Assembly (NCBI GenBank): GCA_903875445.1
Contig: CAIQWD010000014.1
Location: 1 to 64,000, forward strand
From: an uncultured delta proteobacterium
GTDB lineage: Bacteria > Desulfobacterota > Desulfobulbia > Desulfobulbales > Desulfocapsaceae
Reading direction: 5' to 3'
Length of the DNA stretch: 64,000 nucleotides
This document shows, piece after piece, positions 4,801 to 64,000 of this stretch (its first letter is position 1; each line of letters begins with the position of its first letter). The position numbers and the translations under genes are program-made. A model generated the notes under the pieces. It made no database searches. It was not told the DNA's origin and saw nothing but the letters and a program-made list of their open reading frames with translations.

Positions 4801-5164
4801 TGGTGGAGGCGGCGGGAGTCGAACCCGCGTCCGAAAATGCTCCCCTCCCGTATCTACATGCTTAGTTCCGTGCTTTGGTTCTCACTTTGGGAACTCCGTC
4901 GGAACATGGATTTCCCGCAGCCAGCCTGTTAAATCTCATCCCTTGAAAGACAGACGGCCTTCAAGCGACCAGCCCATTGAGTCGACGCCCCAAATCCAGT
5001 CCTATGGGCGAGAACTGGTGGAACGGCAGTATGACAGGTTAAGCTGCTACTGCGTAGTTATAATCGTCTGCGATTATATTTAGATTCTATCGGTTTTACG
5101 AGCAAATAGAAGCTCGGCATGCAACAGTAAGCTTACACATCCCCGTCGAATCCGTTTCGCCCCC
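4801..5164 (-). ncRNA. ssrA: tmRNA (ssrA), tag ADDYNYAVAA
   Basis: The 3' end carries a tRNA-like T arm (GAGTCGAACCC in complement) and encoded CCA at 4801-4803. The 5' end carries GGGGGCG followed by the conserved ACGGATTCGACGGGG. The two ends pair in a 7-bp acceptor stem with one G-U. The tag reading frame lies at 5039-5071: resume codon GCA, then GAC GAT TAT AAC TAC GCA GTA GCA GCT and TAA. It encodes ADDYNYAVAA, with the hydrophobic AVAA end that proteases recognise. Length is 364 nt. smpB lies 29 bases upstream on the same strand, so both partners of trans-translation are adjacent. Confidence 0.96.
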
Positions 5165-9238: not shown

Positions 9239-9327
9239 GTACTCATCGCTATGAGTACCTGAGAAATATTTTTGCGCTCTTTTCCGGCAAAAAAATATCC
9301 CGTTTAGGTACTTATCCCGTTTAGGGG
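9239..9327 (+). repeat. Dispersed palindromic element, copy A
   Basis: It begins with a perfect hairpin (GTACTCAT, 4-nt loop, ATGAGTAC, 9239-9258). The core shared with copy B follows: AGTACCTnAGAAATnnTTTT at 9254, an A/T-rich middle, then AGGTACTTATCCCGTT at 9306-9321 and a G-rich end. The outer AGTACCT/AGGTACT arms are inverted repeats. Copy B (63724-63793) is the reverse complement with the same layout. No coding potential is seen. It resembles a REP- or MITE-like element. Confidence 0.7.
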
Positions 9328-17267: not shown

Positions 17268-17284
17268 TAGCACATCCTCCGTAA

Positions 17285-17563
17285 TTATTTATTTTCTGCC
17301 GAACCAGTCAGTTGCAAAAGAACATGGTCGGCCCTTTGTTGCTCTGTTGAAAAATGCGTTTTTAGAAAATTGGGGAAAAAGAACAGCTTCAAAACGACAA
17401 ACATGACAAAGAGCTTGATGAAAATGATTTTCCACAGGGTTCGGCCGACGGTCATTTGTTGAAACCCGTCCCGATATAAACGGTAAAAACTCATGAAAAA
17501 TGGCGGCGTCATAATTTTCTCCACCCAAAGATCAGCAGATTTGACAGCTACACTCTGCTTCAT
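17285..17563 (-). CDS. DUF4492 small membrane protein
   Basis: A 92-residue protein with the DUF4492 pattern FYRLYRDGFQQMTVGRTLW, then a hydrophobic helix (IIFIKLFVMFVVLKLFFFP). This family is commonly encoded directly before cydAB, and here it is the first gene of the operon. Its role is unknown, possibly assembly of the bd oxidase. ATG 17563 has a near-ideal AGGAGTGAGG upstream. Confidence 0.85.
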   Translation of the reverse strand: MKQSVAVKSADLWVEKIMTPPFFMSFYRLYRDGFQQMTVGRTLWKIIFIKLFVMFVVLKLFFFPNFLKTHFSTEQQRADHVLLQLTGSAENK

Positions 17564-40506: not shown

Positions 40507-41779
40507 TTCTGTTATGATTGTCGTCAGGGTTGCCTTCAGCGCCTTTATCCCGCTCTGCTTCATTGCAGTCTGCGTCTGGATGGAGCGGAGGGGGGCCGGC
40601 TATTTTCAGGATCGATCCGGCCCAAACCGCGCCAATATCTTTGGTTTTCGGGCTGCCGGACTCGTGCAGAACCTCGCCGACGCGGCCAAGCTTATCTTTA
40701 AAGAAGATGTCATTTCCGGGCATATCAAACACAAGTTCTACTTTGTTCTCGCCCCGGTGATTGTTTTCTTCACCGCCCTCGTCTCCTTTGCCGTCGTTCC
40801 CTTTGCCGATACTCTGGTGGTCGGCGGTAAAAGTTACATTATGCAAGGTATCCCGCTTGACCTTGGTATTCTCTGGTTTTTGTCCTTTGTCGGCTTCAGT
40901 GTCTACGGCATTATCCTCGCCGGGTGGTCTTCAACAAATAAATACGGAGTACTCGGTGCCCTCCGTTCGGCGGCACAGGTAATCAGCTACGAAATTCCCA
41001 TGGGTCTGGCGATCGTCAGTTTGCTCGTCGTTTACGGCACCGTCAATCTCAACGAAATTGCTCAGTTCCAAGGAAAGCTCCTGTTCGGATTCATCCCCAT
41101 GTGGGGTGCTGTGCTGCAACCTATAGGGATGGTTATCTTCATTATCGCCGCCTTCGCCGAGACCAACCGGACCCCTTTTGATCTCGCCGAGGGCGAAAGC
41201 GAACTAGTTGCCGGCTTCCATGTCGAATACAGCGCCATGAAGTTCGCGATCTTTTTCATGGGTGAATACGTCGCCATGTTCGCGTCGAGCGCCATGATCG
41301 TCACCCTCTTTTTCGGTGGTTACCAGGTGCCGTTTCTCTCCACAGCCACCTTGATTGGTCAAGCCAAACCGGTAGCCTTCCTGCTGATGGTCATTATCCC
41401 CGTGGTCATGCACTTTTTCGCCGGGTGGATCAGAAGGAGCAACGTCAGCCATTATCCGCGGGAAAATGATCCGCGGGTCTTCGAGGCTACGGTCTATATC
41501 AAATGTCTTTGGGGCTTGGTGATCTTCCTAGAAATAGTTCTCCTGGCCATCCTCTTCTCCGCCTCAGGGGGTGCGACCGCCCATATCTTCGTGGTGCTCC
41601 TGCAACTGTGCACTTTCCTTGTAAAAGTTACCATGATGATTTTTGTTTATATCTGGGTACGCTGGACCTTGCCCCGTTTTCGCTATGACCAGCTACAGAA
41701 ATTGGGATGGCAGATGCTCCTACCCTTGGCACTTCTGAACATCTTCATTACAAGCGCATTTGTCGTGGCGTTGAGCTAA
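40493..41779 (+). CDS. nuoH: NADH-quinone oxidoreductase subunit H (long)
   Basis: A 428-residue membrane subunit that lines the quinone entry path. It has the ERRGAGYFQDRSGPNRA loop near 30 and TNRTPFDLAEGESELVAGFHVEYS near 225. E. coli NuoH has about 325 residues, so this one carries extra C-terminal membrane segments. Confidence 0.95.
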   Translation: MSLLDSVMIVVRVAFSAFIPLCFIAVCVWMERRGAGYFQDRSGPNRANIFGFRAAGLVQNLADAAKLIFKEDVISGHIKHKFYFVLAPVIVFFTALVSFAVVPFADTLVVGGKSYIMQGIPLDLGILWFLSFVGFSVYGIILAGWSSTNKYGVLGALRSAAQVISYEIPMGLAIVSLLVVYGTVNLNEIAQFQGKLLFGFIPMWGAVLQPIGMVIFIIAAFAETNRTPFDLAEGESELVAGFHVEYSAMKFAIFFMGEYVAMFASSAMIVTLFFGGYQVPFLSTATLIGQAKPVAFLLMVIIPVVMHFFAGWIRRSNVSHYPRENDPRVFEATVYIKCLWGLVIFLEIVLLAILFSASGGATAHIFVVLLQLCTFLVKVTMMIFVYIWVRWTLPRFRYDQLQKLGWQMLLPLALLNIFITSAFVVALS

Positions 41780-41792
41780 AGGAGAGGATGAC

Positions 41793-42317
41793 ATGGGTGC
41801 TAAAGTAAAAACAATGGACCGGAAGGGAGCGAGTTTTCAGGAACGCCTCTACCTGATTGAGATCTTTAAGGGGATGGCCACCACCTTCGGCCATTTTTTC
41901 CGAAATCTTCTCGACAACAGAAAACTTTACGTTCGCCACTACCCTGAAGTTCAGCCGGAAATTCCGGTTCGCTGGCGTGGCCGGCATCGCTTAACTACCC
42001 ATGCCGACGGCACAGTCAAATGTGTTGCCTGTTTTATGTGTCAGACCAATTGTCCAGCCAACTGCATTATGATTGAAGCCGGAGAAAGGCTTGACGGCAA
42101 GACTGAAAAAATGCCGGTGAAATTCAAAATTGATCTGCTGGAATGCATATATTGCGGCTACTGTGTCGAAGCCTGTCCTTTGGACGCAATCCGCATGGAT
42201 ACCGGGATTTTCTCAGTGACGGACAATAACAGGGAATCTTTCGTCTTGGAACTCCCGGAGTTACTGACAACCCCGGGAGCCTTTTCCGAAGAAGAATATA
42301 AAAAAGGGGGCGCTTGA
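41793..42317 (+). CDS. nuoI: NADH-quinone oxidoreductase subunit I
   Basis: A 174-residue subunit with two [4Fe-4S] ligand sets, CVACFMCQTNCP and CIYCGYCVEACP, typical of N6a/N6b. It passes electrons toward N2. It sits 13 bases after nuoH. Confidence 0.97.
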   Translation: MGAKVKTMDRKGASFQERLYLIEIFKGMATTFGHFFRNLLDNRKLYVRHYPEVQPEIPVRWRGRHRLTTHADGTVKCVACFMCQTNCPANCIMIEAGERLDGKTEKMPVKFKIDLLECIYCGYCVEACPLDAIRMDTGIFSVTDNNRESFVLELPELLTTPGAFSEEEYKKGGA

Positions 42318-56725: not shown

Positions 56726-56946
56726 CTGCTTTGGACGAACACCCTGCGAGGCGAGAGAAACACGGTAAAATGTGAACGGTGGTTGCCCGAGGCGCAGTGT
56801 TTATGGTAAAGAACATTGATCGTCAAATCTTTGGACGCCAAACCCAAACCCTGATAAATGGGATAAAAACCTGCATAAAGAATTTTCTAAAATAAATTCC
56901 TTTCGAGGTGTTGACCCCCAACAGTTTTTTTACACAAGGAGAACCC

Positions 56947-63662: not shown

Positions 63663-63723
63663 GGTTGTACCTCTTATTTTCTGATTATTAAAAATATCTT
63701 GAAACAGCAGCTCCCTTATTTAG

Positions 63724-63793
63724 CCCCGCTTAACGGGATAAGTACCTTCACGAAATTCTTTCTTAAAAACAAGAAAAGAATTTCTAAGGTACT
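63724..63793 (-). repeat. Dispersed palindromic element, copy B
   Basis: Reverse-orientation copy of the element at 9239-9327. On the minus strand it reads AGTACCTTAGAAATT, a long imperfect hairpin (GAAATTCTTTTCTT/AAGAAAGAATTTC), then AGGTACTTATCCCGTT and a G-rich end. The plus strand shows AAGTACCTT...AAGGTACT arms. It covers the radA stop. Confidence 0.7.
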
Positions 63794-64000
63794 AAAAAAA
63801 TCCCTTGCAACACCTCGTGCAAATTGGCGACCCCGACAAGTTCGATCTCCGGCTTCCAGGTCAAGCGTTCCTTGTTTCCCGCCGGCAGTACAAAGCGGGT
63901 AAACCCGAGACGCTGCGCTTCACGAATCCGTACATCGACGTGACCTATGGCCCGAACTTCGCCGGCCAGACCGACTTCGCCGCAGACAACGGTAGTGGGA
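63784..64000 (-). CDS. radA: DNA repair protein RadA (C-terminal part)
   Basis: The last 71 codons of radA/sms, a RecA-like branch-migration helicase. The segment VVCGEVGLAGEVRAIG...REAQRLGFTRFVLPAGN matches the Lon-protease-like C-terminal domain. The gene enters from the right edge. Its stop TAG (63784-63786) lies inside the repeat element. Confidence 0.9.
   Translation of the reverse strand, partial: PTTVVCGEVGLAGEVRAIGHVDVRIREAQRLGFTRFVLPAGNKERLTWKPEIELVGVANLHEVLQGIFLVP

Follow-up and report, generated by a model that had tools for sequence, protein, structure and literature searches.

Origin and placement of a palindromic repeat in a Desulfocapsaceae genome

What kind of sequence is a palindromic stretch that appears twice, in opposite orientations, in a contig of an uncultured member of the Desulfocapsaceae? 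The DNA analyzed here is the first 64,000 nucleotides of contig CAIQWD010000014.1, referred to below as the window. A preliminary description had noted two palindromic stretches, copy A (9239-9327) and copy B, had placed them in intergenic DNA apart from the radA end, and had proposed that they represent a dispersed REP- or MITE-like element. Both stretches are present in the sequence as noted, and their opposite orientation is correct. The element proper has different bounds from those first given (Table 1), and a small palindrome at 9,239-9,258 that had been counted within copy A falls outside the family consensus. Copy B reads TTAGTACCTTAGAAATTC...GAATTTCGTGAAGGTACTTATCCCGTTAAGCGGGGC on its own strand and folds at -28.8 kcal/mol; copy A reads TGAGTACCTGAGAAAT...CCCGTTTAGGTACTTATCCCGTTTAGGGG and folds at -26.4 kcal/mol. 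A third copy, copy C, is new relative to the preliminary description and reached an E value of 6.1e-5 in a search smaller than that listed in Table 1.

The intergenic placement held for the most part. Copy A has an acyltransferase-domain gene on one side and a glyoxalase-domain gene on the other, and copy C is located upstream of a pyridoxal-phosphate enzyme gene. The exception is copy B: its first 12 bases, TTA GTA CCT TAG (63,784-63,795, minus strand), close the radA frame by encoding its three final residues, LVP, and its stop codon. This frame matches the NCBIfam RadA profile TIGR00416 with 393 bits as a fragment, and the profile ends before the last seven residues. Since copy B supplies the LVP residues and the stop codon, it is now part of a coding sequence.

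Table 1. Copies of the element, their parts, and sites in the window that lack an element present at the corresponding locus elsewhere
Feature	Position in window	Strand	Evidence
Copy B, intact: TTAG tag (63,792-63,795), hairpin 1, CTTAT spacer, hairpin 2 (CCCGTTAAGCGGGG)	63724..63795	-	96.2 bits, E 1.6e-17 in own genome
Hairpin 1 of copy B: outer stem AGTACCTT/AAGGTACT, A/GTG bulge, AT-rich inner stem, T-rich loop	63741..63793	-	Alignment, covariation counts
Copy B hairpin 2, GC-rich	63724..63737	-	Alignment; helix 3 of covariation counts
Copy B right-hand tetranucleotide, CTAA on element strand, target-derived position	63720..63723	-	Sequence, border analysis
Copy A, decayed: tag TGAG, hairpin 1, CTTAT, hairpin 2 (CCCGTTTAGGGG)	9252..9327	+	40.3 bits, E 5.3e-5
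Copy C, strongly decayed	56845..56914	-	32.3 bits, E 0.0032
Empty site: element in L162 (Desulfobulbaceae BRH_c16a), absent from window, TTTAG once	41770..41795	-	Locus comparison
Empty site: element in L120 (MAG Old_saline.mb.128), absent from window, TTAT once	17280..17300	+	Locus comparison

The repeat is widespread among sulfate-reducing bacteria

The exact 16-mer AGGTACTTATCCCGTT occurs at only two sites in the 4.89 Mb genome, both of them in the window (a reversed control pattern gave none), and with up to two mismatches it matches 14 genome sites compared to 3 control sites. In a blastn search, copy B matched additional copies in the same genome, with up to 96% identity over the full length and 98% over 59 bases. 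We then relied on a covariance model, R1, constructed from 21 copies that had been aligned with MAFFT, blind to structure; copy B was among them, and copies A and C were left out. R1 gave at least 29 matches in the genome of origin at E<0.005, including copies A, B, and C. The preliminary description had stated that a mere pair of copies with no inverted-repeat conservation would count against its proposal; the number of copies found and the covariation of their stems, described below, show that this is not the situation. At E<=1, the model gave 36 matches in the same genome, and opposite strands of the same palindrome were starting to show.

R1 matches were present in 66 of the 146 genomes sampled from the order and, at E<=1e-4 with the best 12 candidates scored per genome, in 27 of 395 phylum genomes, the other 368 serving as a negative control. 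A blastn search with copy B matched 34 of 37 genomes at a lenient E<=10, a figure that includes chance matches. Thirteen genomes picked as rich carried from at least 19 to at least 147 scored copies each, and one of them, G107, carried at least 142 in 2.8 Mb. All of these copy counts are lower bounds, as the best 150 candidates were scored per genome, and the best 12-32 in wide searches. A strict core pattern recovered 65 stretches from named records, assigned to Desulforhopalus, Desulfobulbaceae, Desulfocapsaceae, Desulfobacterales, or merely Proteobacteria or Deltaproteobacteria, along with single matches in bins named Chloroflexi, Fibrobacterota, and Gammaproteobacteria. The Chloroflexi contig (GWC2_73_18) shares 99.5% identity over 1.4 kb with a contig from Desulfobacterales (GWB2_56_26; L133/L141) and is probably misbinned. 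Blastn with one consensus-like sequence found no match in plasmid and phage collections, and viral contigs contained no exact match to one strict pattern. The repeat is present across many sulfate-reducing bacteria, with more than 100 copies in some genomes, mostly between genes.

Two hairpins with conserved pairing

Each unit consists, in order, of TTAG, hairpin 1, a (C)TTAT spacer, the GC-rich hairpin 2, a G, and then often a second TTAG. The outer stem of hairpin 1 has 8 bp, most commonly in the form seen in copy B; an asymmetric bulge (A/GTG) separates it from an inner stem, AT-rich and up to 13 pairs long, which ends in a T-rich loop. Hairpin 2 takes forms that include CCCGTTTATCGGGG and CCCCCTTGTGGGGG, among others. 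The unit is 71-80 bp long in the commonest subtype, and variants are longer. No gene was seen within the element.

In the stems, pairing is better conserved than the sequence itself. In the 21 MAFFT-aligned copies, two-sided changes occurred at 13 of the 25 pairs, a level reached by none of 500 shuffles, and sliding the partner by one base reduced pairing from 92.7% to 60.2%. With 52 distinct copies, 21 of the 25 pairs covaried (0 of 500 shuffles) in an alignment that was fitted to the model and so leans towards structure. The covariation includes G-U pairs. In distant families the outer stem has been rewritten with its pairing kept (AGTAAGTT with AACTTACT in G434 and G353), and TTAG and ACTTAT are retained.

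Several variants depart from the basic two-hairpin plan. A third hairpin follows a linker like CTGAAAAGAGT in L005, L112, and L162, and a longer 3' module is found in L105, L123, and L124. These last three, on three different contigs of BRH_c16a, are identical elements whose common longer 3' module ends in GCGGGCGTTAGCCCGCTTTAG. Elements in L308, L309, L312, and L316, from other families of the phylum, keep the TTAG-hairpin 1-ACTTAT start and have a longer TTGCGGGC... module in place of hairpin 2, which precedes a 3' TTAG or a similar word. Extra sequence is located in the apical loop of hairpin 1 in L019 (1490-1582), L128 (1174-1262), L136 (4043-4130), and L151 (1415-1505), and the insert in L136 includes another hairpin. 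Judging from these sequences, the apical loop looks as if it were cargo-tolerant.

Insertion occurs next to a TTAG-like tetranucleotide

Conservation starts abruptly at (W)TTAG. Across 100 copies, the upstream sequence is near random (0.00-0.14 bit), position -1 carries 0.78 bit, and the TTAG positions carry 1.45-1.78 bits. At the right border, four conserved positions (1.32, 1.55, 0.85, and 1.00 bits) are followed by a drop to 0.06 bit (55/56 copies of one hairpin-2 subtype). The element ends are TTAGTACC at the 5' side and CGGGG(TTAG) at the 3' side; the palindromes are internal, and no inverted repeats were seen at the termini in the border analysis.

The two tetranucleotides are not equally constant. 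Among 46 copies from G107, the left one is TTAG in 42 (the exceptions being TCAG in three and ATAG in one) compared to 32 for the right one (Fisher p 0.016), and in a wider set TTAG stands on the left in at least 52 of 56 copies and on the right in 27 of 55 (p 2e-7), both p-values being rough given that the copies are related. By position, the left tag of the wider set reads T54 T54 A56 G56 of 56. GTAG is found as an occasional left tag, as in L010 and L013.

Comparison of orthologous sites shows that some carry the element and others do not. In addition to the two empty sites in the window (Table 1), occupied and empty loci could be paired in L016/L126, L126/L211, and L139/L137, and a site occupied in G107 is uninterrupted in eight relatives, which match all or nearly all of a 280-base joined-flank query with 71-80% identity. 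When the unit is cut out from its TTAG through the final G of hairpin 2, what is left has the same length as the empty junction in L120, L016, L139, and G107/G076, and is off by 2 bases in L162 and by 1 in L126. Eight further locus pairs were too diverged for the junction to be read (L154/window, L006/L132, L131/L158, one L137/L139 site, L056/L198, L013/L145, L013/L046, and L122/L201). The element inserts directly 5' of a (W)TTAG-like tetranucleotide that is already there, so that one tetranucleotide becomes two. The right repeat of L016/L126 is TCAG, exactly the word found at the empty site; that of L139/L137, also TCAG, resembles the TCAAG of its empty site; the left repeat is TTAG in both. 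From these right repeats and the asymmetry of the tags, we conclude that the left TTAG is carried along by the element and that the right tetranucleotide is the target.

All six readable empty sites involve single units. Where copies abut, as in L116, L011, L282, and L299, they form head-to-tail direct tandems with a common TTAG, the expected outcome if a new copy inserts at the tag of an older one. Some pairs are inverted, with 0.4-2.2 kb between the copies (L275-L278). In L275, a 169-aa open reading frame (1183-1692) lies between two oppositely oriented copies that read alike in the stretch compared, and it has no Pfam match.

A proposed single-strand route of transposition and the search for its enzyme

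We consider the repeat to be a dispersed, non-autonomous mobile DNA element that inserts at TTAG and is moved as a single strand by a trans-acting HUH nuclease of the Y1 type, a reading to which we assign a probability of roughly 0.6. The element brings its own TTAG at the left and lands 5' of the target tetranucleotide, and new copies can land on the TTAG of old ones to give head-to-tail tandems. It would move as single-stranded DNA, and the putative nuclease would act as such enzymes do on IS200/IS605 ends and REPs. No function for the host is needed to explain the element.

The IS200/IS605 elements provide the closest rule: insertion takes place 3' of a tetranucleotide that is retained, and the element carries its own tetranucleotide at the right end, where a bulged hairpin adjoins it. 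On its complementary strand, the present element follows the same rule, with insertion 3' of CTAA and its own CTAA at the right end, next to the bulged hairpin. As in IS200/IS605 ends, hairpins lie near the ends and terminal inverted repeats are absent, and a target tetranucleotide is retained on one side with an element-borne one on the other, provided that the left tag is read as element-borne. The differences are that both tetranucleotides are the same word here, that no copy was found beside tnpA-type genes, and that no orientation bias was seen. The guide rule of IS200/IS605 is treated in the relevant parts of PMC8266576 and PMC6006769. According to PMC8266576, in the part concerned with this enzyme, E. 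coli TnpA-REP needs both GTAG and the stem bulge, and the tetranucleotide can help to choose the cut. The present repeat, with its tetranucleotide at the base of a bulged hairpin, resembles TnpA-REP substrates. Given how short such pairing would be, we do not claim that TTAG/CTAA pairs with a guide sequence adjacent to hairpin 1.

The genomic association with Y1 transposases that this reading might lead one to expect was not seen. The preliminary description had proposed a test for a TnpA-REP partner gene, and the loci of Y1 transposases did not provide one. A search restricted to the Y1_Tnp family, the sole enzyme family covered, gave 97 matches in all, 11 of them without a locus of their own. 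At 85 of the 86 Y1 loci, from 18 genomes, there was no copy within ~1.5 kb (flanks being shorter at contig ends), the one locus with a nearby copy being L183, and a REP-transposase partner was rejected on this basis. No gene-bearing unit with tnpA between the same ends was seen beside the Y1 genes examined. Y1 genes were nearly as frequent in genomes without an R1 match (16 of 20; a few of these 20, such as G036 and G020, matched weakly by blastn and may contain decayed copies) as in genomes with copies (18 of 20), and therefore we claim no Y1 association; for the same reason we do not claim one from clustering of the Y1 proteins at 40% identity, which had given a RAYT-like group in 17 genomes. 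Two genomes rich in copies, G004 (at least 108) and G084 (at least 25), had no Y1_Tnp match. Transposition on the lagging strand would predict an orientation bias with respect to GC skew, and there was none (45 of 83 copies in one count and 18 of 39 in another). Because linkage, gene frequency, these two genomes, and orientation all go against it, we infer the Y1 step from the form of the element, with moderate confidence. The imperfect left tag and the inexact junction lengths in L162 and L126 also count against the reading as a whole.

The same results make up the case for a mobile element that is moved by something other than a Y1 enzyme, such as another HUH enzyme, a recombinase, or a route through RNA and reverse transcriptase. 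We regard this as rather unlikely: the tag and bulged-hairpin anatomy resembles that of known Y1 substrates, the search of the one enzyme family produced no candidate, the copies in G004 could be old remnants, and the G084 assembly is 84% complete. Along related lines, we suggest only tentatively that the repeat may be a phylum-wide TTAG-tagged two-hairpin family of sulfate reducers and their relatives with a mobility system of its own, neither RAYT/REP nor DDE MITE, in which a trans-acting enzyme would recognize a bulged hairpin with TTAG on one side and CTTAT on the other and would insert the element exactly at TTAG, whichever way it faces the replication fork.

A MITE mobilized by a DDE transposase is improbable

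MITEs such as ERIC, RUP, and Correia are short, non-coding, dispersed, intergenic sequences flanked by short direct repeats, and a classical MITE has terminal inverted repeats. The present element is MITE-like in its short, non-coding, dispersed, and direct-repeat-flanked form and differs in lacking the terminal inverted repeats; the MITE half of the preliminary description holds for general form and fails at the borders. Duplication of TTAG as a 4-bp target by a DDE transposase would account for the 4-bp direct repeats, for empty sites with one copy of the tetranucleotide, and for the identity of the left and right tetranucleotides in 31 of the 46 G107 copies, an identity that is also a point against the single-strand reading. 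The duplication expected of such an enzyme is equal on both sides; here the 4-bp repeats are asymmetric and vary unequally even though the G107 copies hardly differ in their interiors, and at two empty sites the target is resembled by the right repeat alone. We therefore think a DDE MITE improbable.

Gene context does not point to a structured RNA

Placement was scored for 164 copies with a crude open reading frame caller: 127 lie between two mechanically called frames, 26 overlap one, and 11 lack a frame on one side. Between co-directional neighbors, 50 copies are in sense and 37 in antisense orientation, and a further 26 lie between divergent and 14 between convergent genes. The background gaps (n=513) comprise 305 co-directional, 110 divergent, and 98 convergent ones, and thus copies are not in excess between convergent genes (14/127 vs 98/513). 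Inspection by eye found no T-run 3' of the element in 21 places.

None of the elements searched against Rfam 15 reached a gathering score, all matches to them being sub-threshold; the sole match at gathering score in the window was a tmRNA (4,801-5,164, minus strand, 217.8 bits). Among the sub-threshold matches, one to Whalefall-1 (30.7 bits, gathering 37) covers hairpin 2 and the downstream flank in L046 (2646-2693) and was not reported for 13 other loci; this identity was rejected, and the match is taken as a chance C-rich hairpin. A sub-threshold SECIS_3 match (46.9 bits, gathering 63) is located at 1988-2046 in L151. In its placement and orientation the element does not look like a terminator or cis-regulator, and we reject these readings on that basis.

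A structured RNA, be it a cis-regulator, an sRNA, or a terminator that is transcribed and selected for its function, would explain the strong covariation with G-U pairs and the RNA-like hairpins, but the Rfam result, the occurrence of both orientations beside co-directional genes without a convergent excess, the lack of a T-run, and the presence or absence of the element at orthologous sites make it the least probable of the readings considered here.

DISCUSSION

The preliminary description was right in its hunch of a dispersed repeat, and the term REP- or MITE-like is correct in kind, for the element is dispersed, mostly intergenic, palindromic, and mobile as judged from empty sites. It had not noticed the TTAG at the 5' end, hairpin 2, or the rule of insertion. 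Identity with REPs is another matter. In those parts of PMC3733652 and PMC6006769 that deal with it, the REP/RAYT system is defined by the REP tag GTAG or GT[AG]G. REPs as characterized by Di Nocera et al. (2013, PMC3733652, in its account of GTAG- and CGTC-tagged REPs) are, like the present repeat, short, dispersed, mostly extragenic palindromes, with a conserved tetranucleotide at one hairpin end, a high copy number, and compensatory stem changes, and the CGTC REPs likewise have no linked transposase. They measure 20-40 bp by the same account, whereas the present element measures at least 71-80 bp and joins two dissimilar hairpins by CTTAT. Our repeat differs further in its TTAG tag, in its long AT-rich stem, and in the insertion rule obtained from empty sites. 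It is thus a dispersed, multi-copy, extragenic imperfect palindrome, as REPs are, but has no GTAG or GT[AG]G tag at the foot of the hairpin and no repeat-flanked transposase gene (RAYT, PF01797), a copy being near only one Y1 locus, and its mobile unit at the readable empty sites is the single unit and not an inverted doublet (BIME/REPIN). The element seems close to REPs and to IS200-type ends in its apparent working, and it is not a REP by its tag and by linked transposase.

Within the portions of the open-access literature consulted, no description of a TTAG-tagged repeat of the present kind was found. The main text of PMC3733652 contains none of the terms "TTAG", "Desulfo", and "deltaproteobacteria", and it does contain abbreviated names such as D. 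alkenivorans. RepRanger (PMC12306157, in its tabulated data) includes palindrome counts for Desulfotalea psychrophila.

The mechanisms by which REPs are disseminated are described as poorly understood in the part of PMC8266576 that addresses them. For the spread of REP-like repeats, the present family is good material, as it combines near-identical copies in high number in G107 with readable empty sites and a sharp insertion rule. Its deep covariation defines what an enzyme must recognize, and the copy-rich genomes with no Y1 match argue against a resident RAYT. A model of the R1 type can be used to annotate non-coding DNA in sulfate reducers.
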